From the NCBI GenBank assembly GCA_003153855.1, contig PMBM01000121.1, forward strand, positions 1-11,726: DNA of 11,726 nucleotides, in the 5' to 3' direction. Below the pieces are notes generated by a model, which saw nothing but the letters and a program-made list of their open reading frames with translations, ran no database searches and had not been told where the DNA came from. Within the stretch, counting starts at the first letter, position 1. Every line of letters starts with the position of its first letter. A program made the translations under genes and the position numbers. Shown here piece after piece: positions 4,437 to 11,286 of the stretch. This DNA is from Propionibacteriaceae bacterium. GTDB lineage: Bacteria > Actinomycetota > Actinomycetes > Propionibacteriales > Propionibacteriaceae.

Positions 4437-4505
4437 GTGAGACACGCTCGAGTCCTCCGGCGAATCCCTGAAGTGCCCGGGTAGGGCAAGGATCCTCAAC
4501 GAGCT

Positions 4506-4680
4506 CGCTTCAACCGGGTTTGTGGTCGCAATGGCGGGGGCAACGAGGGCGCGCCACGGTTCAACGGGGTTCGTGGTCGGTATGGAGCCGGAACCGGGCC
4601 TCATAACGACCACAACTCCCGGCGACCGTTGCGACAGCGTGAAGACTGGCCCCACAGCGACCACAAGCCCGGTTGAAGCG
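4506..4680. repeat. 175-bp symmetrical palindrome made of four 21-nt motif copies
   Basis: The element is symmetric about base 4593 with no indels; by eye 56 of 87 half-positions pair. The outer arms 4506-4529 and 4657-4680 match at 23 of 24 positions. Inside each half a related 21-nt motif (TTCAACsGGGTTyGTGGTCG plus one base) recurs: plus-strand copies at 4509-4529 and 4560-4580 (18/21 alike, period 51) and minus-strand copies at 4657-4677 and 4606-4626. The order is therefore two copies pointing right and two pointing left, at mirror positions. The right edge is 9 bp from the stop of the AbiEi/DUF559 gene; the left edge is 82 bp before the next minus-strand gene. No flanking target duplication is obvious. 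It could be a REP/MITE-like dispersed repeat, a large cruciform or terminator, or a protein-binding array. Confidence 0.85.
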
Positions 4681-4689
4681 CTCGCTCGG

Positions 4690-5646
4690 TCACCATGCGA
4701 GCGCTCGGGCGATCCGCTCCATGACGACAGCCGGCTCGAGCATGATCTCCCTCGCCAGCCAGCGCACGAATCGATAGCCGAGGTCGCGCAGCATCTGCTC
4801 GCGCTGCTTCTCGAGCACGAAGGCCTTGGCGTCGTCGTACTTCACCGCCCCGTCGCACTCTCCGATCAGCTTGAGGTCCTCCCAGAGGAAGTCGGGGTAG
4901 ACCTTGCCCATCGGGGTCCGGATCTCCGCCTGGAAGCTCGGCGTGGGGAGCTCGGCCAGGTGCAGGTGACCCGCCGACAGGGACTCGGCTGCTGACTCCC
5001 GCGATGGGTTCACGAGGGCGATTGCGGGACGCAGTCGGGTGGCGCGAACGGTGGTCGCCGCCTCCACCAAGAGGTCTGTGGCGACTCGCACGAGCTGCGG
5101 GTTCGCGTAGTCGCGGCGGCGGATCTGGTTCACCAGCGAGGCGCAGATCAGCCGGGCCGCACTGTCGAGCAGGACCAGTGCCTCGGGCAGCGGTAGGTCG
5201 GCTGCGAGATCAACCGCCGTACGTGCCGGCGTGGTCACGGAGTATCCCTCCCTGTCGCGCTGGACCTGCGCGGACGGCAGCCGGCCGGTGTGGTGGATGG
5301 CCGAGGCGGAGCTCGCGCTGTTGCCAGTCACCGGGAGGGTCACCGAGACCGGCAGGTCCTCCCAGCGCTGGAAGCCAGGAGTCGGCAGCCCCAGGATCAG
5401 CGCGGCCGACTGATGGCTCGCCACCGCGGTGGTGTGGACGGTCAGCTCTGCACGCGTCGCGACGAGGTGCTGACCCTTGGCGTCGGACGGCCAGGCGTCG
5501 GCCCGCACGTACACGCCCCGCCTCACCTGTACGAGGTCGCCGCTGTCGAGACGGGTCCGAAGCATCCGGGCCGTGACGCCGGAGCCGAGCAGATCAGCAC
5601 GGGCAATGGGTTGGGTGGGCAGAACCCAGGGCGTGGGGGTACGCAT
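4690..5646 (-). CDS. AbiEi-antitoxin-like N-terminal domain fused to a DUF559 (Vsr-like) nuclease-fold domain
   Basis: This 318-residue protein starts at ATG 5646, with GAGG 8 nt upstream. Residues 10-55 resemble the AbiEi-type antitoxin winged helix: IARADLLGSGVTARMLRTRL, then LVQVRRGVYVRADAWP. The middle (60-215) includes SHQSAALILGLPTP at 78-91 and TPARTAVDLAADLPLPEALV at 139-158, typical of this group. The C-terminus (216-318) is DUF559: E221, PDF with D252, GECDG with E263 and D265, K269, then a basic QREQMLRDLGYRFVRW at 281-296. D252, E263 and K269 form a PD-(D/E)XK-like set, so the active site looks intact. Family knowledge suggests DNA binding plus a nuclease fold; activity is rarely demonstrated. 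No cognate AbiEii toxin is adjacent. The palindrome beginning just after its stop is the notable context. Confidence 0.82.
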   Translation of the reverse strand: MRTPTPWVLPTQPIARADLLGSGVTARMLRTRLDSGDLVQVRRGVYVRADAWPSDAKGQHLVATRAELTVHTTAVASHQSAALILGLPTPGFQRWEDLPVSVTLPVTGNSASSASAIHHTGRLPSAQVQRDREGYSVTTPARTAVDLAADLPLPEALVLLDSAARLICASLVNQIRRRDYANPQLVRVATDLLVEAATTVRATRLRPAIALVNPSRESAAESLSAGHLHLAELPTPSFQAEIRTPMGKVYPDFLWEDLKLIGECDGAVKYDDAKAFVLEKQREQMLRDLGYRFVRWLAREIMLEPAVVMERIARALAW

Positions 5647-5722: not shown

Positions 5723-6268
5723 ATGAAACGCGTGACATCCAGCCAGACACTGAGCGATTCCGACAGGCGGATCCTCGCTCGCTGGGCGGCACTGTGCGCC
5801 GAACGCGTCCTGCCTCTGTTCGAGGTGGAGGTGCCGGACGACGATCGAGTACGCGATGCCGTAGCGCGCGCCCGTGCCTATGGGTGCGGCGACAGCAAGG
5901 CCGCCGACGAGATCCGGAAACGCCTTGTCGCCGTCAAGGCAGCAGGAGCAGCGACTTCTCCTGCGGGTGCCGCGGCGGCCAGGGCTGCCGCACAAGCCTC
6001 CGCTGTTGCTCACATGGGTGCGCACGCGCTGGGCGCCGCGGCCTACGCCGTCAAGGCCGTGTCACTCGCGAACCCCCATGAGCCTGGGGCGGCACCGGAC
6101 GAGCTCCGCTGGCAGCTCGACCAACTGACCCTCGAGCAGCGCGCGGCGCTCCGTCTGCTCCCCCCGCTCGGGTCGGACTCCGCGGGCCCGTTGGGTCCTG
6201 GCCTGTTGACAAGCGGCATCCTCGCCACGGTGGTTCGACAGATTCAGGCTGAGGTGGGAGTCGAGTAG
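5723..6268 (+). CDS. Imm5-like putative immunity protein
   Basis: This protein has 181 residues from ATG 5723, or 178 from GTG 5732; the GGAAAG at 5717-5722 abuts the ATG but sits 9 nt from the GTG, so the later start is quite possible. ILARWAALCAERVLPLFEVE at 17-36, then PDDDRVRDAVARARAY at 38-53 and an Ala-rich helical stretch with HMGAHALGAAAYAVKAV at 97-113 match the Imm5 immunity-protein pattern (WAa.CAeRvLp.FE ... P.D.R.r.Ai). The C-terminal part (125-181) is predicted helical, with no signal peptide. By family, Imm5 proteins protect against polymorphic toxins, but no toxin, RHS or secretion gene lies nearby. It is an orphan immunity gene or has another role. It is divergent from the AbiEi/DUF559 gene and convergent with the ATPase gene. 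Confidence 0.72.
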   Translation: MKRVTSSQTLSDSDRRILARWAALCAERVLPLFEVEVPDDDRVRDAVARARAYGCGDSKAADEIRKRLVAVKAAGAATSPAGAAAARAAAQASAVAHMGAHALGAAAYAVKAVSLANPHEPGAAPDELRWQLDQLTLEQRAALRLLPPLGSDSAGPLGPGLLTSGILATVVRQIQAEVGVE

Positions 6269-6349: not shown

Positions 6350-7525
6350 TCAGCCGACTGTCTTGAGGTACCGCCCGAAGTGGGGGACGGTGAACGCGAC
6401 GCGGCCGCGTTCACCGGAGTAGACGAGGCCCTTCTTGAGCAGGGAGTCGCGGGCGGGGGACAACGACTGGGGAGTACGGGCGAGGACCCGTGCCACCTCC
6501 GCGGTCGACACGGAGCCCAGGCTGTCCGCGTCGGCGTCAGCCATCGCGCGGAGGTAGTCGCGCTCGCCGGGGGTCGCCCGTTCGTACCGGCTCCCGAAGA
6601 ACCCCACCGCAAGCTCCGTCTCGGCCTGAGGGGCCCCGACCTGGACGTCCTCGCGGCTGATCGGCGTGCGTGGCGCGGTGTCCCAGACGGCCTTGCCGTA
6701 CGCCTGGACGAAGTACGGGTAGCCACCGGTCAGCTGGTACATCGCATCGAGCGCCTCGGGCGCCCACTCGACGCCCTCGTCGGTCGCCGGCGCCACGAGC
6801 GCCTGGTCGGCGGCCTCGCGCGGCAGACGGTCGACGAGCTGGTAGCGGAACAGCCGTTCCGAGTACGACTTCGAGGCGGACAGCACCGCCGGCAGGTGCG
6901 GGAGGCCGGCGCCGACGACGACGAGCGGCAACCCCTGCTGGCCGAGCTCGTGGACGGCGGCGCACACGGCGGACACGTCCGCGGGGCCGAGGTCCTGCAT
7001 CTCGTCGATGCACAGCGCGACGCCGCGTCCGACGTCGGAGGCGAGGCCCGCGATGTCGACGAGCAGCTCGACCAGGTCGATCTCGATGTCGCCCGAGTCC
7101 GCCCGCCCCGTCACGGTCGGCGCCATGATGCCGGGCTGCCAGCGGTCGGCCGGCTTCGACCCCTTGGGCGAGTCGCGCTCGACGAACGCCTTGAGCGCGC
7201 CGAGAACCGGCAGGGGATCGGGATGTGCCAGCTCCCGTACGGCCATGTGGAGGGCGGCACCGATCGGACGCCGCACGCTCTGGTCCGGCCGCGCCTCGAA
7301 CTTCCCGGTTCCCCAGCCCGCCCGTACAGCCGCCGACCGCATCGCGTTCAGCAGCACGGTCTTCCCCACGCCGCGCAGCCCGGTGAGAACCATCGAGCGC
7401 TCGGGACGGCCGCGTGCGATGCGCTCGAGAACGACGTCGAACTGGCGCAGCTGGTCGTCGCGCCCTGCCAGCTCAGGCGGTCGCTGCCCGGCCCCGGGTG
7501 CGTACGGGTTCTGGATGGGGTCCAT
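6350..7525 (-). CDS. AAA-family ATP-binding protein (stand-alone)
   Basis: This 391-residue protein starts at ATG 7525. Walker A is GLRGVGKT at 49-56 and Walker B LCIDEMQ at 171-177 (D174, E175). VVVGAGLPHLP near 202-212 is a sensor-1-like strand and SERLFRYQLVDRLP follows, as in the Orc1/Cdc6-like and MNS-type AAA_16 ATPases. LTGGYPYFVQAYGKAVWD marks the helical lid. The last ~80 residues, from ERATPGERDYLRAMADADAD, look like a winged-helix DNA-binding domain ending in FTVPHFGRYL. No signal or membrane helix is present. The N-terminus NPYAPGAGQRPPELAGRD is typical of actinobacterial single-gene ATPases of this kind, whose role is not established; DNA- or protein-remodelling is inference. No partner effector gene is adjacent. 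The start has no ribosome site but has a well-placed -10 element. Confidence 0.85.
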   Translation of the reverse strand: MDPIQNPYAPGAGQRPPELAGRDDQLRQFDVVLERIARGRPERSMVLTGLRGVGKTVLLNAMRSAAVRAGWGTGKFEARPDQSVRRPIGAALHMAVRELAHPDPLPVLGALKAFVERDSPKGSKPADRWQPGIMAPTVTGRADSGDIEIDLVELLVDIAGLASDVGRGVALCIDEMQDLGPADVSAVCAAVHELGQQGLPLVVVGAGLPHLPAVLSASKSYSERLFRYQLVDRLPREAADQALVAPATDEGVEWAPEALDAMYQLTGGYPYFVQAYGKAVWDTAPRTPISREDVQVGAPQAETELAVGFFGSRYERATPGERDYLRAMADADADSLGSVSTAEVARVLARTPQSLSPARDSLLKKGLVYSGERGRVAFTVPHFGRYLKTVG

Positions 7526-7683: not shown

Positions 7684-7722
7684 GGGCGCGAGAGATCCTG
7701 TGTCTCGGCTAGTCTCGCGCCC
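7684..7722. promoter_or_regulatory. 10-bp-arm inverted repeat upstream of the DUF1800 operon
   Basis: GGGCGCGAGA at 7684-7693 and TCTCGCGCCC at 7713-7722 are perfect inverted copies separated by 19 bp. The right arm overlaps a TAGTCT hexamer at 7710-7715 that could be the -10 for the DUF1800-DUF1501 operon. Two-site operator or hairpin are both possible. A smaller CTGAGAA/TTCTCAG repeat lies just upstream (7652-7679). Confidence 0.4.
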
Positions 7723-7780
7723 AGGTGACCGCTGCATCCGAGCCGCGGTGACCGGAACGGCCACCACCCCAGGAGGTTCC

Positions 7781-9916
7781 GTGACCGAACCGACGACGAG
7801 TGCCCCCACCGGGCCAGACAGCCCCGGCAGCGGCGGCCGACGCGGCATGCTGACGGCTGCGCTCCTCGGCGCAGCGGGACTCGGTGTGGCCGGCGCCGCG
7901 AAAGCTCTCAGCATGGGAGTCTCGTCCCCCGGCGCCAGCGTCACGACCACAGCACGACCCGGGCCGGCGTCCACGACGACCGCTGCCGCGCCCTCCGTCT
8001 CGTCGAACCTCCCCTCGTCGGGCGCGCCGACGACCGTGGTCACCTCATCCACCGGCCCGAACGCCGTCGACCTGGACCAGAGCTACCAGCGCACCGTACG
8101 CGCGCCTGCTCCCGTCAGCGAGCACCTCACGTACGTGGAGGTGGACATCGCCCCTGCTGCGACGGTGAGCGCAGCGGCCTCGACGAGCGCATCGGCGACG
8201 ACGTCCGCGACCGCCACGAGCAGCGTCCTCCCCGTGGTGTCGGCGACACCGTCTGTCGCGGCGAGCGCGAGTACGGCTGGGACCACCGCGGCCTCGAGCG
8301 CCGCGTCCTCGGCGGCAGGCACCGTCGCGTCCGCAGCGACCAGCGCGGCGTCGGCCACCGCGGCAGCCACGTCGGCCGCACCGACGGCCCAGACGACGAA
8401 GCAGTCGAGCAAGCCGCCCGTGGTGGTCAAGGGCGCCTTCAGCGCCGCAGCCGCGCAGGCGGTCCAGCCGGCGACCGTGTTCGGGCCTGCCGGCCCGCTC
8501 ACCGCCAAACAGGCTCAGGAACATCTGCTGCGCCGCGCGACGTGCGGGCCGCGACCCTCAGACCGTACGGAGATCGCCGCACTCGGCATCGACGCCTGGC
8601 TGGAGCGGCAGCTGAACCCGAGCTCCATCCCTGACGCTACCGGTGACGCGATCGCCGCCCGCTTCCTGACGAGCGGTACGAGCATCGCGCAGGTCGTCGG
8701 AGCGTCCCAGCAGTACGGGTGGAACGCGATGTTCGAGCTCGTGCAGCAGGTCATCGGGCGCCAGGTCTTCTCGACCCGGCAGCTCCAGGAAGTCGTCGTC
8801 GACGTGCTGGCGAACCTCGTCAACGCGACCGTACCGTCGGACTCGTTGTGGGCGACGGCCGCTGACTACCAGTACCAGGTCGTCCGTAAGAATGCGTTCG
8901 GCCGATACCGCGACCTGCTCCTCGCTGCCGAGAAGCACCCGGCGATGCTGACGTACCTCAACAACGACCAGTCGACACGCGAGCACGTCAACGAGAACCT
9001 CGGCCGTGAGCTGCTCGAGCTCCACACGGTGGGGGTGGGCGGCGGCTACACGGAGACCGACGTGCAGAACTCGGCCAAGATCCTGTCCGGCCGCACGATC
9101 CAGTGGGACGACACCAAGAGCAACTACTACCAGTTCGTCTACCAGCCGTCGCAGCACTACGTGGGGCCCGTGACCGTGATGGGGTTCACCGACCCGAACA
9201 CCGATGCGACGCAGGGCAACGCGCTGGCGGACCGGTACGTGTCGTACCTCGCGAACCTTCCGTCGACCGCGGCCCGGGTGGCACGCAAGCTGGCCGTACG
9301 GTTCGTCTCCGACGCACCGTCCGATGCGCTGGTCGCCGCGATGGCGAAGTCGTACCTCGACAACGACACCCAGATCGTTCCCGTCCTGCGCACGATGTTC
9401 AGCTCCGTCGAGTTCTGGTCGTCGGTCGGGGCCAAGACGAAGCGCCCGCAGCAGGACATCGTCTCGACCTGCCGCGCGCTCGACATCCAGATCGCCAACG
9501 CGGCGGGCAACGACTCGAAGGAGGGGATGGCCGACCTGTACTGGCTGCTCACGACCACCGACGACGCTCCGCTGCGCCGGGTGACCCCGGACGGCTACCC
9601 CGACGTCGCAGCCGCCTGGCAAGGGGCGGGCCAGATGCTCAAGAGGTGGGGTGCCCACCGCGGCCTCGCGTTCGGCTGGTCGAGCGGACTCAAGCCCACC
9701 ACGTTCTCGACGCAGCCGGCACCCGGTGCGACGGTCGGCGAGTGGGTCGACGGGATCAGCGTCGCGCTCCTGGGCGCGTACCTCCCGGGGACGGCCCGTG
9801 CGGCAATCGTCGAGTTCCTCGGGATGAGCTCCACCGACAAGGTGGACTGGCATTCCTGGGAGGGCGGCTACGTCGCGGCCCTCGTCCTCGACTCCCTCTA
9901 CTTCCAGGCCCGTTGA
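7781..9916 (+). CDS. DUF1800 family protein, Tat-like signal, long Ala/Ser/Thr linker
   Basis: This 711-residue protein starts at GTG 7781; AGGAGG at 7771-7776 is the best ribosome site in the region and decides this start over the open antisense-derived frame that runs back to 6335. GGRRGMLTAALLGAAGLG at 18-35 is a plausible twin-arginine export signal. Residues about 48-235 are a low-complexity segment, almost only Ala, Ser and Thr from 126 to 206. The DUF1800 domain fills ~240-711: AQEHLLRRATCGPRPSD at 245-261, AWLERQLNP at 272-280, REHVNENLGRELLELHTVGV at 400-419, GGYTETDVQNSAKILSG at 421-437, KRPQQDIVSTCRALD at 554-568 and PDGYPDVAAAW at 603-613. The family is widespread and always beside DUF1501 proteins; its chemistry is unproven. 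DUF1501 follows after 8 bp, so the two are cotranscribed and probably act together outside the membrane. Confidence 0.9.
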   Translation: MTEPTTSAPTGPDSPGSGGRRGMLTAALLGAAGLGVAGAAKALSMGVSSPGASVTTTARPGPASTTTAAAPSVSSNLPSSGAPTTVVTSSTGPNAVDLDQSYQRTVRAPAPVSEHLTYVEVDIAPAATVSAAASTSASATTSATATSSVLPVVSATPSVAASASTAGTTAASSAASSAAGTVASAATSAASATAAATSAAPTAQTTKQSSKPPVVVKGAFSAAAAQAVQPATVFGPAGPLTAKQAQEHLLRRATCGPRPSDRTEIAALGIDAWLERQLNPSSIPDATGDAIAARFLTSGTSIAQVVGASQQYGWNAMFELVQQVIGRQVFSTRQLQEVVVDVLANLVNATVPSDSLWATAADYQYQVVRKNAFGRYRDLLLAAEKHPAMLTYLNNDQSTREHVNENLGRELLELHTVGVGGGYTETDVQNSAKILSGRTIQWDDTKSNYYQFVYQPSQHYVGPVTVMGFTDPNTDATQGNALADRYVSYLANLPSTAARVARKLAVRFVSDAPSDALVAAMAKSYLDNDTQIVPVLRTMFSSVEFWSSVGAKTKRPQQDIVSTCRALDIQIANAAGNDSKEGMADLYWLLTTTDDAPLRRVTPDGYPDVAAAWQGAGQMLKRWGAHRGLAFGWSSGLKPTTFSTQPAPGATVGEWVDGISVALLGAYLPGTARAAIVEFLGMSSTDKVDWHSWEGGYVAALVLDSLYFQAR
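8153..8401 (+). repeat. Ala/Ser/Thr low-complexity coding segment
   Basis: Residues 125-207 of the DUF1800 protein are nearly all Ala, Ser and Thr with a few Val and Pro, and without an exact tandem unit. It would be a flexible, possibly O-glycosylated stalk between the export signal and the folded domain, similar in character to the Thr-rich linker of the FMN-binding protein at the other end of the window. Confidence 0.7.
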
Positions 9917-9924
9917 GGAGCCCC

Positions 9925-11286
9925 ATGACTCACGAGACCTCTCCACTCATCGCGGCATCCTTGCATCCCGACTGCCCCGACTGGCGCCGGCTCGGGCCGA
10001 CGACAGCTGACGCGGCCGTACGTGCCATGGCCGATGTCCACGAGATCCGCGAGGGCGGACGCGAGCAGGCCTGGTCGAAGGGCTTCACCCGGCGCCGACT
10101 GCTGGCCGGAGGCATGGGGGTCGGTGTCGCGGCGGTGGGATCGCAGCTCGTCACGACACGCGTGGCGTACGCAGCCGGGGCCGCCACAGGCACCCTCGTG
10201 GTCGTCTTCCTCCGCGGCGGCATGGACGGGCTCTCGATGCTCTCGCCGGCCGGCGAGGCTGCTGCACTCACCGCAGCGCGCGGATCCGTCGCGGTGACGT
10301 CGGGGATCAGCCTCGACCGCGGGTTCGTCCTGCACCCGGCGTTGATCGCCTTGAAGCCGTACGTGGACGGCGCCAAGCTGGCCGCCATCCCCGCCGTCTC
10401 GACGCCGGCGCTCAGCCGTAGTCACTTCCAGGCGCAGGACTGCCTGGAGCGTGGCGGCTTCAACGGCGCAGGGTCGTCGAGCGGCTGGCTGGACCGGCTG
10501 CTCGAGGTGCTCGGCGCCGGCACGACGTTCCGCTCGATCGCCGGCGGGTACAACGCGCCGCGGTCGCTGCTGGGGTCCAGCTCTCCCGTCGTGCTGGAGT
10601 CCCTCAGCGAGTTCGCCATCTCGGGGGTGGACCAGAGCCTCGTACCGGCGACCATGACCGCGCTGCGCAAGCTGTACACGGGCATCGACCACCCGATGTC
10701 GCGTCAGGCGCTCATCGCCCTGGCGGCCGCTGACACGGTCGGCCAGCTGAACACCACCGAGCAGACGCCCGCGGCGCGCGGCTACAGCGACGACGACTGG
10801 GGGCACGCGCTGTCGGCGATCGGGTCGCTCATCCGTACGGACAGCACGGTCCGCGTCGCCACGATCGACCTCGGCGGCTGGGACATGCACACCCAGATGG
10901 GGACCCAGTCCTCAGGCGACTTCTTCAACATGGCGAAGACCCTCGGTGACGGACTGAGCACGTTCTTGCACGACCTCGGGCCGACGATCGACCACACGAC
11001 GGTGGTCGTCATGAGCGAGTTCGGCCGGCGCGTGGAGAAGAACGCGAACAACGGCACCGACCACGGCCACGGCGGTGTCGCCCTGGTCATGGGCGGCGGC
11101 GTCTCGAGCGGCGTGAAAGGCACATGGGAGACCCTCGGCACCTTGGCCGACGGCGACATCCCTGGTTCGAACGACTACCGAGACCTTCTTTCGGAAGTCG
11201 TCATGAAACGGTTTGGGCTCACCGCAGCTCAGATCGCTCCGGTGTTCCCAGACTGGACGCCTACTGCAGTGGGCGCGATGGTCTAG
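9925..11286 (+). CDS. DUF1501 family protein, Tat-exported
   Basis: This 453-residue protein starts at ATG 9925 with GAGGAG at 9915-9920, overlapping the end of the DUF1800 gene. A strong twin-arginine motif FTRRRLLAGG lies at 54-63, then a hydrophobic stretch and a plausible AYA-A cleavage near 83. The 53-residue n-region before the arginines is unusually long; it contains HPDCPDWRRLGPTTADAAVR at 14-33. The DUF1501 domain follows: VVVFLRGGMDGLSML at 92-106, LHPAL at 136-140, SRSHFQAQD at 164-172, DLGGWDMH at 315-322, MSEFGRRV at 363-370 and GTDHGHGG at 377-384, with His and Asp at positions that bind metal in the alkaline-phosphatase/sulfatase superfamily. A hydrolase acting on a sulfated or phosphorylated extracellular substrate is possible but unproven. 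It is second in the DUF1800-DUF1501 operon, closed by a hairpin at 11305-11339. Confidence 0.92.
   Translation: MTHETSPLIAASLHPDCPDWRRLGPTTADAAVRAMADVHEIREGGREQAWSKGFTRRRLLAGGMGVGVAAVGSQLVTTRVAYAAGAATGTLVVVFLRGGMDGLSMLSPAGEAAALTAARGSVAVTSGISLDRGFVLHPALIALKPYVDGAKLAAIPAVSTPALSRSHFQAQDCLERGGFNGAGSSSGWLDRLLEVLGAGTTFRSIAGGYNAPRSLLGSSSPVVLESLSEFAISGVDQSLVPATMTALRKLYTGIDHPMSRQALIALAAADTVGQLNTTEQTPAARGYSDDDWGHALSAIGSLIRTDSTVRVATIDLGGWDMHTQMGTQSSGDFFNMAKTLGDGLSTFLHDLGPTIDHTTVVVMSEFGRRVEKNANNGTDHGHGGVALVMGGGVSSGVKGTWETLGTLADGDIPGSNDYRDLLSEVVMKRFGLTAAQIAPVFPDWTPTAVGAMV

Follow-up and report, generated by a model that had tools for sequence, protein, structure and literature searches.

The closest described partnership of a gene with repeats is that of RAYTs with REPs. 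According to two reports, REPs form specific families whose scattered copies sit mostly 3' of genes, where the neighbouring genes are convergent or codirectional, and the RAYT is flanked by palindromes (PMC3733652, PMC8266576). The CGTC REPs are said to be dispersed palindromes without a dedicated transposase (PMC3733652). For AbiEi and Rv2827c, another report describes binding to inverted repeats of 23 bp in the promoters of their genes, with four such repeats for Rv2827c (PMC7319586). Dispersed palindromes linked with DUF559 or AbiEi were not found in the open-access literature, which was covered by titles and the starts of abstracts (preprints and most subscription papers lie outside). The same literature yielded no paper that treats AbiEi and DUF559 together, and the open-access papers that hold both DUF559 and 'palindrom' concern other subjects only, as judged by title and abstract start.

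The window in this work is the whole stretch of 11,726 nucleotides from Propionibacteriaceae bacterium. The coordinates of the array and the adjacent gene are shown in Table 1. An earlier note on this DNA described a 175-bp palindrome without indels, and this palindrome is real. It exhibits 56 complementary mirror pairs out of 87 with no indels, and its four-site score of 87 lies above the scores of 200 dinucleotide shuffles (mean 58.2, maximum 66). The outer arms that were identified by the repeat search are 29 nt long with 90% complementarity. The array consists of four sites of about 20 nt with a direct spacing of 51 bp on both sides. The four motif copies that were placed at mirror positions are present as far as the two exact rightward copies and the outer leftward copy (one mismatch) are concerned; the inner leftward copy departs from the motif at five positions. 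The array begins 9 bases beyond the stop codon on the minus strand, as the same note had stated. The tag search of the window array returned no GTAG, CTAC, CGTC, or GACG. The single strand at 4480-4710 folds well (z -7.1), and no known RNA family was matched at gathering score in the window or in loci L129, L121, and L092.

Table 1. Positions of the array, its four sites, and the adjacent gene in the window.
Feature	Position	Strand	Basis
Inverted array (IR/DR) of four sites, described as a palindrome in the earlier note	4506..4680	.	Repeat search, mirror pairing, four-site score
Outer site TTCAACCGGGTTTGTGGTCG	4509..4528	+	Exact match to the motif
Inner site TTCAACGGGGTTCGTGGTCG; spacing to the outer + site 51 bp	4560..4579	+	Exact match to the motif
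Diverged inner site of the minus strand: GTCGCCGGGAGTTGTGGTCG	4607..4626	-	5 mismatches, counted from the sequence
Outer site of the minus strand; spacing to the inner - site 51 bp	4658..4677	-	1 mismatch
AbiEi_4 + DUF559 (PD-(D/E)XK) gene, 318 aa	4690..5646	-	Pfam; stop codon 4690-4692, 9 bp from the array
AbiEi-type part at the N-terminus, residues 1-75; its divergence tracks the motif	5422..5646	-	Pfam and motif correlation
C-terminal nuclease part, residues 216-318; E221, D252, E263, D265, K269	4693..5001	-	Pfam and alignment

The window protein matches the Pfam models DUF559 with 28.9 bits (cut-off 20.6) and AbiEi_4 with 25.4 bits (cut-off 25). It also matches MTES_1575 and AbiEi_3_N, each below its own cut-off, and eight AbiEi models of PADLOC. 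The solved endonuclease-like protein 3hrl is a weak sequence match (E 6e-4). Residues 1-75 are taken here to be a winged helix, from the AbiEi fold, and the DUF559 / MTES_1575 nuclease domain is presumably Vsr-like. The window protein resembles the DUF559, MTES_1575, and Vsr-like nucleases in its C-terminal domain and catalytic residues. The residues E221, D252, E263, and D265 are invariant in all 86 aligned sequences and K269 is present in 71 of the 86, in an alignment that leaves out proteins with stops or fewer than 240 residues and holds some close sequences twice.

A search of plasmid and phage collections at 1e-5 returned nothing for the window protein, and no relative was confirmed in viral contigs that were searched with the family alignment. 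Carriage by any of the three was rejected on these searches. The DUF1814 (AbiEii toxin) model matched none of the ten other window proteins that were scanned, which matched other families or none. The window also holds genes for an FAD-binding protein, an FMN-binding protein, and ApbE in a row (97-2213), an Imm-5-like protein (5723-6268), an AAA ATPase (6350-7525), and tandem DUF1800 and DUF1501 proteins (7700-11286).

The close relatives were sampled as 39 loci from a scan of named genomes. These loci consist of 28 from Propionibacteriales, Propionibacteriaceae, or Micropruina/Propionicimonas/Propionicicella, 10 that are labelled only as "actinobacteria", and one from Solirubrobacteraceae. 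The best palindrome within 260 bp downstream of the gene has a mean score of 18.4 over 45 flanks, the own genome included, and the mean is 11.4 upstream (45 flanks) and 10.4 in 111 random control windows. Four-site scores of at least 72 were obtained for 30/45 downstream flanks, 1/43 upstream flanks, and 0/59 control windows. A motif common to both sides of the gene is found in 5/43 of the close subfamily, where three of the five are the distant loci L079-L081. The 5' copy is mostly missing in the close subfamily. Upstream of the window gene, the palindrome score of 9 and the four-site score of 57 are both at background level, and the inverted repeats that characterise AbiE promoters are not seen there.

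The spacing was tallied in 33 clear arrays that were hand-picked from the 45 scored flanks, and 27 of these selected arrays are spaced at 51/51, whereas the remaining six have 51 or 52 bp on their sides. The flanks that were dropped are L044, L057, L059, L062, L070, L074, L076, L077, L079, L080, L081, and C198 of the own genome, some of which partly fit. In the 33 arrays, sites at mirror positions resemble each other no more than sites on the same side (Wilcoxon p 0.81) or on the diagonal (p 0.59), and spacer pairing is 0.317 in register versus 0.24-0.315 off register. The symmetry thus resides in the four sites, and "inverted array of direct repeats" describes the gene-flanking palindrome better than "175-bp hairpin". 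A long hairpin as the selected feature was rejected for the window's subfamily on the same two grounds. The palindrome as a unit stands as four equal sites and falls as a long hairpin, at least in the window's subfamily as represented by the 33 arrays.

The genus and family hold 16 extra arrays, and four sites were resolved in 15 of them, with 14 spaced at 51/51 and one at 51/52. Locus L177 is outside the scan behind these 16. One of the extra arrays (G400:C204) is found upstream of a family gene with a second array on its downstream side, which means that this gene is flanked on both sides, and another (G400:C139) lies inside a frame that was predicted by the GC3-based gene finder. The family profile matches in 33/37 relatives. 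The pairing of gene and array is less clean in the window's own genus. Two genomes that are fragmented drafts hold window-type arrays: G398 (80% complete) has an intact gene that is at most 56% identical, and G400 has an intact gene that is 62% identical and only a 61-residue fragment at 75%.

The own genome is a 3.67-Mb draft that is 78% complete. It contains eight full-length family members, and the other seven are 52-76% identical to the window protein. The contig of the C216 paralogue ends 95 bp beyond the stop codon. Six of the seven members with enough flank have a clean four-site array 3' of the stop codon, and these arrays start 1-16 bases past the stop codon with four-site scores of 76-93. 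The seventh member, C198, has four copies that are interrupted by N runs. At this locus (L033), N runs and duplicated pieces surround the array 3' of the family gene, which looks like a scaffolding artefact at the repeat. Six motifs were identified among the own-genome arrays; C54 and C198 share one and the rest differ. Gene-free arrays are also present, four with the C54 motif (C139, C4, C103, and C142) and one with the C48 motif (C189). All five of these stray arrays have four sites, spaced at 51/51 bp in four of them and 51/52 bp in C103. The check for gene remnants covered these own-genome stray arrays, and none was found beside the five by tblastn at 0.01 in flanks of about 3 kb to the left and 0.6-3 kb to the right.

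The similarity of motifs was compared with the identity of protein parts in 31 gene-array pairs, after L073 and L078 with broken frames had been dropped from the 33. The correlation with residues 1-75 is rho 0.37, which none of 1000 permutations reached, in a test that does not fully remove relatedness. The correlation with residues 216-318 is rho 0.09 (148/1000 permutations as high), and the middle parts of the protein give rho 0.15 and 0.17 (50/1000 and 31/1000). The divergence of the motif tracks the N-terminal domain, not the nuclease.

The genus of G424 consists of 38 species, all with some homologue. The G424 palindrome with at most three mismatches occurs at 25 places in G424, nine in G455, and four in G437. 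It also occurs at one place in G431, with three mismatches, where the best gene is not close (58%). None was found in the other 34 species of the genus at the same limit, and the reversed pattern was found in none of the 38. Copy number within the genus thus ranges from 0 to 25. The genes closest to that of G424 are those of G455 (82%) and G437 (77%), followed by G416 (64%). With G424 set aside, the palindrome co-occurs with a close gene in 2/2 species versus 1/35 for the rest (p about 0.005 by hand), where the threshold of 77% or more was set after the data had been seen. Among homologues at 57-63%, palindromes that resemble it in scaffold but differ in letters are frequent, and 8 of the 30 homologues examined have no strong palindrome on either side. 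In the G424 family, for which G455 and G437 were included to give 18 copies (17 of them distinct), the spacers pair at 0.60 in register versus 0.16-0.39 off register, so a hairpin may matter in this family. Four loci of G437 (L241, L244, L247, and L249) have a G424-type core with outer CCCACCACTGGTGGG sites, as if two palindrome families had been fused.

Element-free sites were sought by comparing the joined flanks of eight G424 copies with seven congeners. Both flanks were located in one of 30 loci for 17/56 site/species pairs, and one of these (gap 1088) was set aside. The element is present in 3 of the 16 usable pairs, all in G455 or G437 and two of them variants, and absent in 13. The clearest empty site is L235, where G437 is without about 90 bp between well-aligned flanks. 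For a comparison with MITEs and other IS-derived miniature elements, which are marked by a target-site duplication and a parent transposase, element-free sites are present, but the congeners, with the L254 pair as one case, are too diverged for base-exact ends of the element. These element-free sites fit insertion, and loss could give the same pattern.

Across the phylum, 106 of 396 sampled genomes have a match to the family profile. A 16-mer that is shared at 15 or 16 identities by both sides of the gene was found in 26/44 distant homologues, from other actinobacterial families, versus 1/112 control windows (p 8e-17), where 330 bp upstream were compared with 230 bp downstream of homologues with full flanks and the controls were other loci. 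Palindromes upstream of the gene occur in many distant homologues. The remaining 18 of the 44 have no flank motif common to both sides by this test. Pfam was run on eight distant homologues with palindromes: an AbiEi model matches in four (two below its cut-off), MTES_1575 matches below its cut-off in one, three have no match, and DUF559 matches in none of the eight. In view of this weak Pfam support, the family placement of distant homologues rests on profile A1 and the aligned residues. Two loci of G416 downstream of a family gene (L123 and L141) exhibit head-to-tail units of about 20 bp (GGGGTTAGCCCACTGTTCTG) followed by inverted copies, which is an expanded array. The loci L103 (G054) and L109 (G364), from two genera of one family, have the common motif TTGTCGCCCGAAA beside the homologues.

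Dispersed copies were searched with 16 downstream palindromes together against their 16 genomes at 1e-4, with both strands counted and 23 places scored per genome. Each genome has 2 to 60 matches, 472 in all, and the segments and places of matches were judged among the matches listed, roughly a third of the 472. At least 11 of the 16 genomes have palindrome copies away from the gene, at 1 to 22 places each among the matches listed, and each match read among them falls in that genome's own palindrome segment. G421, G288, and G364 have 40, 11, and 21 matches, and among the matches listed a place is given only for the gene's own flank. No dispersed family was seen in G008 and G062, with two and three matches. 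The copies of G429 are 88-100% identical among the matches listed.

A total of 40 copies were located from three genomes (20 from G429, 13 from G214, and seven from G424) against genes that were predicted by a home-made, GC3-based finder. None of them is wholly inside a predicted gene, and nine overlap a gene end by 2-24 bp. The orientation of the neighbouring genes was assigned for 38 copies, as convergent for 20, codirectional for 16, and divergent for two. Comparison across genomes shows that many genes of the family have an array of inverted, often also direct, short sites that is specific to the locus and is placed 3' of the gene or on both of its sides. Most genomes looked at also have gene-free copies of this array between other genes, mostly near the predicted 3' end of a gene. 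The earlier note had proposed to look for copies elsewhere in the host genome, in intergenic regions, with variation between strains and together with DUF559/AbiEi genes. Related arrays are indeed present elsewhere in the host genome outside predicted genes, none of the 40 copies is wholly inside a gene by the GC3-based finder, and variation, which was compared between species in this work, is seen in the 13 congener sites of 16 without the element. The link to genes of this family holds well beyond the window, and arrays dispersed without that link were not the outcome seen.

These findings resemble the REP/RAYT system (REPtron) in layout, where the gene is flanked by the palindrome (on the 3' side for most close family members and on both sides in the 26 distant homologues), and in distribution, where extragenic copies lie mostly 3' of genes as placed by the GC3-based finder. 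However, the protein has PD-(D/E)XK and AbiEi-type domains here instead of an HUH Y1 transposase, and the repeat is a four-site inverted array that lacks GTAG and CGTC in the window. The CGTC REPs are similar in being dispersed palindromes and differ in the CGTC tag, which is absent from the window's array. The transposase search covered PF01797 (Y1/RAYT), which matched in 0/20 genomes, some of them drafts, while control genomes matched in 5/14. A RAYT in the background was rejected on this absence in all 20. The AbiEi antitoxin (AbiE type IV) is similar in its N-terminal part and in having inverted repeats of about 20 nt near the gene, whereas here a C-terminal nuclease is present and the sites are 3' of the gene and dispersed. 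The 23-bp length of the AbiEi repeats fits the site length here, but these repeats do not fit the 3' place or the dispersed copies. The comparison suggests that this partnership of gene and repeat is so far undescribed and that it resembles the REP/transposase partnership yet is unrelated to it. The REP/RAYT parallel that had been drawn from the sequence is apt as a working analogy, and REP/RAYT, the closest kind, is alike in layout and distribution but is defined by a different enzyme.

We consider it rather probable that the gene and the array form one self-referring unit, in which the protein binds, cuts, and spreads the array. The evidence supports well that gene, array, and dispersed copies belong together; binding is a likely step, and the cutting and spreading steps are what we infer. 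The N-terminal AbiEi-type winged helix would bind the sites of about 20 nt, with one protomer on each of the four. The sites repeat directly at 51 bp and at about 20 bp, and both distances are close to a whole number of helical turns. The PD-(D/E)XK domain would nick or cut the array or one of its strands, and replication or repair would then copy the array to new sites. A point against this is that no PD-(D/E)XK nuclease alone is known to join DNA. The gene would stay put while the array would spread in trans, as is thought for REPs with RAYTs. The protein and the motif would change together, so that each paralogue would serve its own array family. The mobility of the arrays is what we infer from presence and absence between species. 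For the family as a whole, we lean slightly towards a second, independent invention of the REP/RAYT kind. The AbiEi-DUF559-like nucleases would then make up a large family in actinobacteria, with several members in many genomes, and each nuclease would bind, cut, and spread its own palindromic array independently of HUH chemistry. The DNA-binding part would co-evolve with the array rapidly enough for congeners to differ in motif.

The protein may instead be a settled DNA-binding host factor whose arrays are dispersed binding sites 3' of genes, acting in transcript ends, chromosome organisation, or regulation, and copied by another process rather than moved by the protein. The copies mostly near 3' gene ends, the lack of a match to the window protein among plasmids and phages at 1e-5, and the N-terminal part that tracks the motif all agree with such a role. 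However, the acidic nuclease residues are invariant in 86/86 sequences, copy number varies from 0 to 25 within one genus, the G429 copies are 88-100% identical among the matches listed, and orthologous sites without the element exist. These four features suggest spread over a fixed function, and we regard the host factor as doubtful. The palindromes may also be operators for autoregulation only, as in AbiEi antitoxins. The AbiEi-type N-terminal part of the window protein, the upstream palindromes of many distant homologues, and the 23-bp inverted repeats bound by AbiEi and Rv2827c (PMC7319586) are in line with operators. The array in the window's subfamily is nevertheless 3' of the gene with usually none 5', the ten other window proteins hold no DUF1814 toxin match, and the copies elsewhere in at least 11 of 16 genomes, among the matches listed, are hard to reconcile with operators, which makes this reading very improbable.

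Another explanation is that the arrays are non-autonomous elements of an unrelated transposase and that the DUF559 protein beside a copy restrains or exploits them. Transposon ends with two transposase sites each have a similar IR/DR layout, and presence and absence between species would also be expected of such elements. However, the gene-motif pairing and the covariation of the motif with residues 1-75 would then need a separate explanation, and no Y1 match was found with PF01797 in 20 genomes; we regard this explanation as quite improbable. The strong single-strand fold and the 3' position would suit an ordinary intrinsic terminator, or the palindrome may be due to chance. Neither accounts for the near-constant direct spacing of 51 bp, the four equal sites, the motif that changes with the paralogue, or the spacers that are not clearly paired. 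A terminator as the complete explanation misfits the arrays compared and is extremely improbable, while a terminator role alongside the rest is possible.

The family profile is common in actinobacteria (106/396 genomes), and no task for such proteins was found in the open-access literature. If the self-referring unit is true, this family would have dispersed repeats as partners in the way that RAYTs have REPs, through unrelated chemistry. This would give a function to a widespread family whose function is unknown and would explain intergenic repeats in these genomes. Numerous orthogonal pairs of protein and site would become available for study, and the question of why partnerships of genes and palindromes are kept in bacteria could be tested independently.
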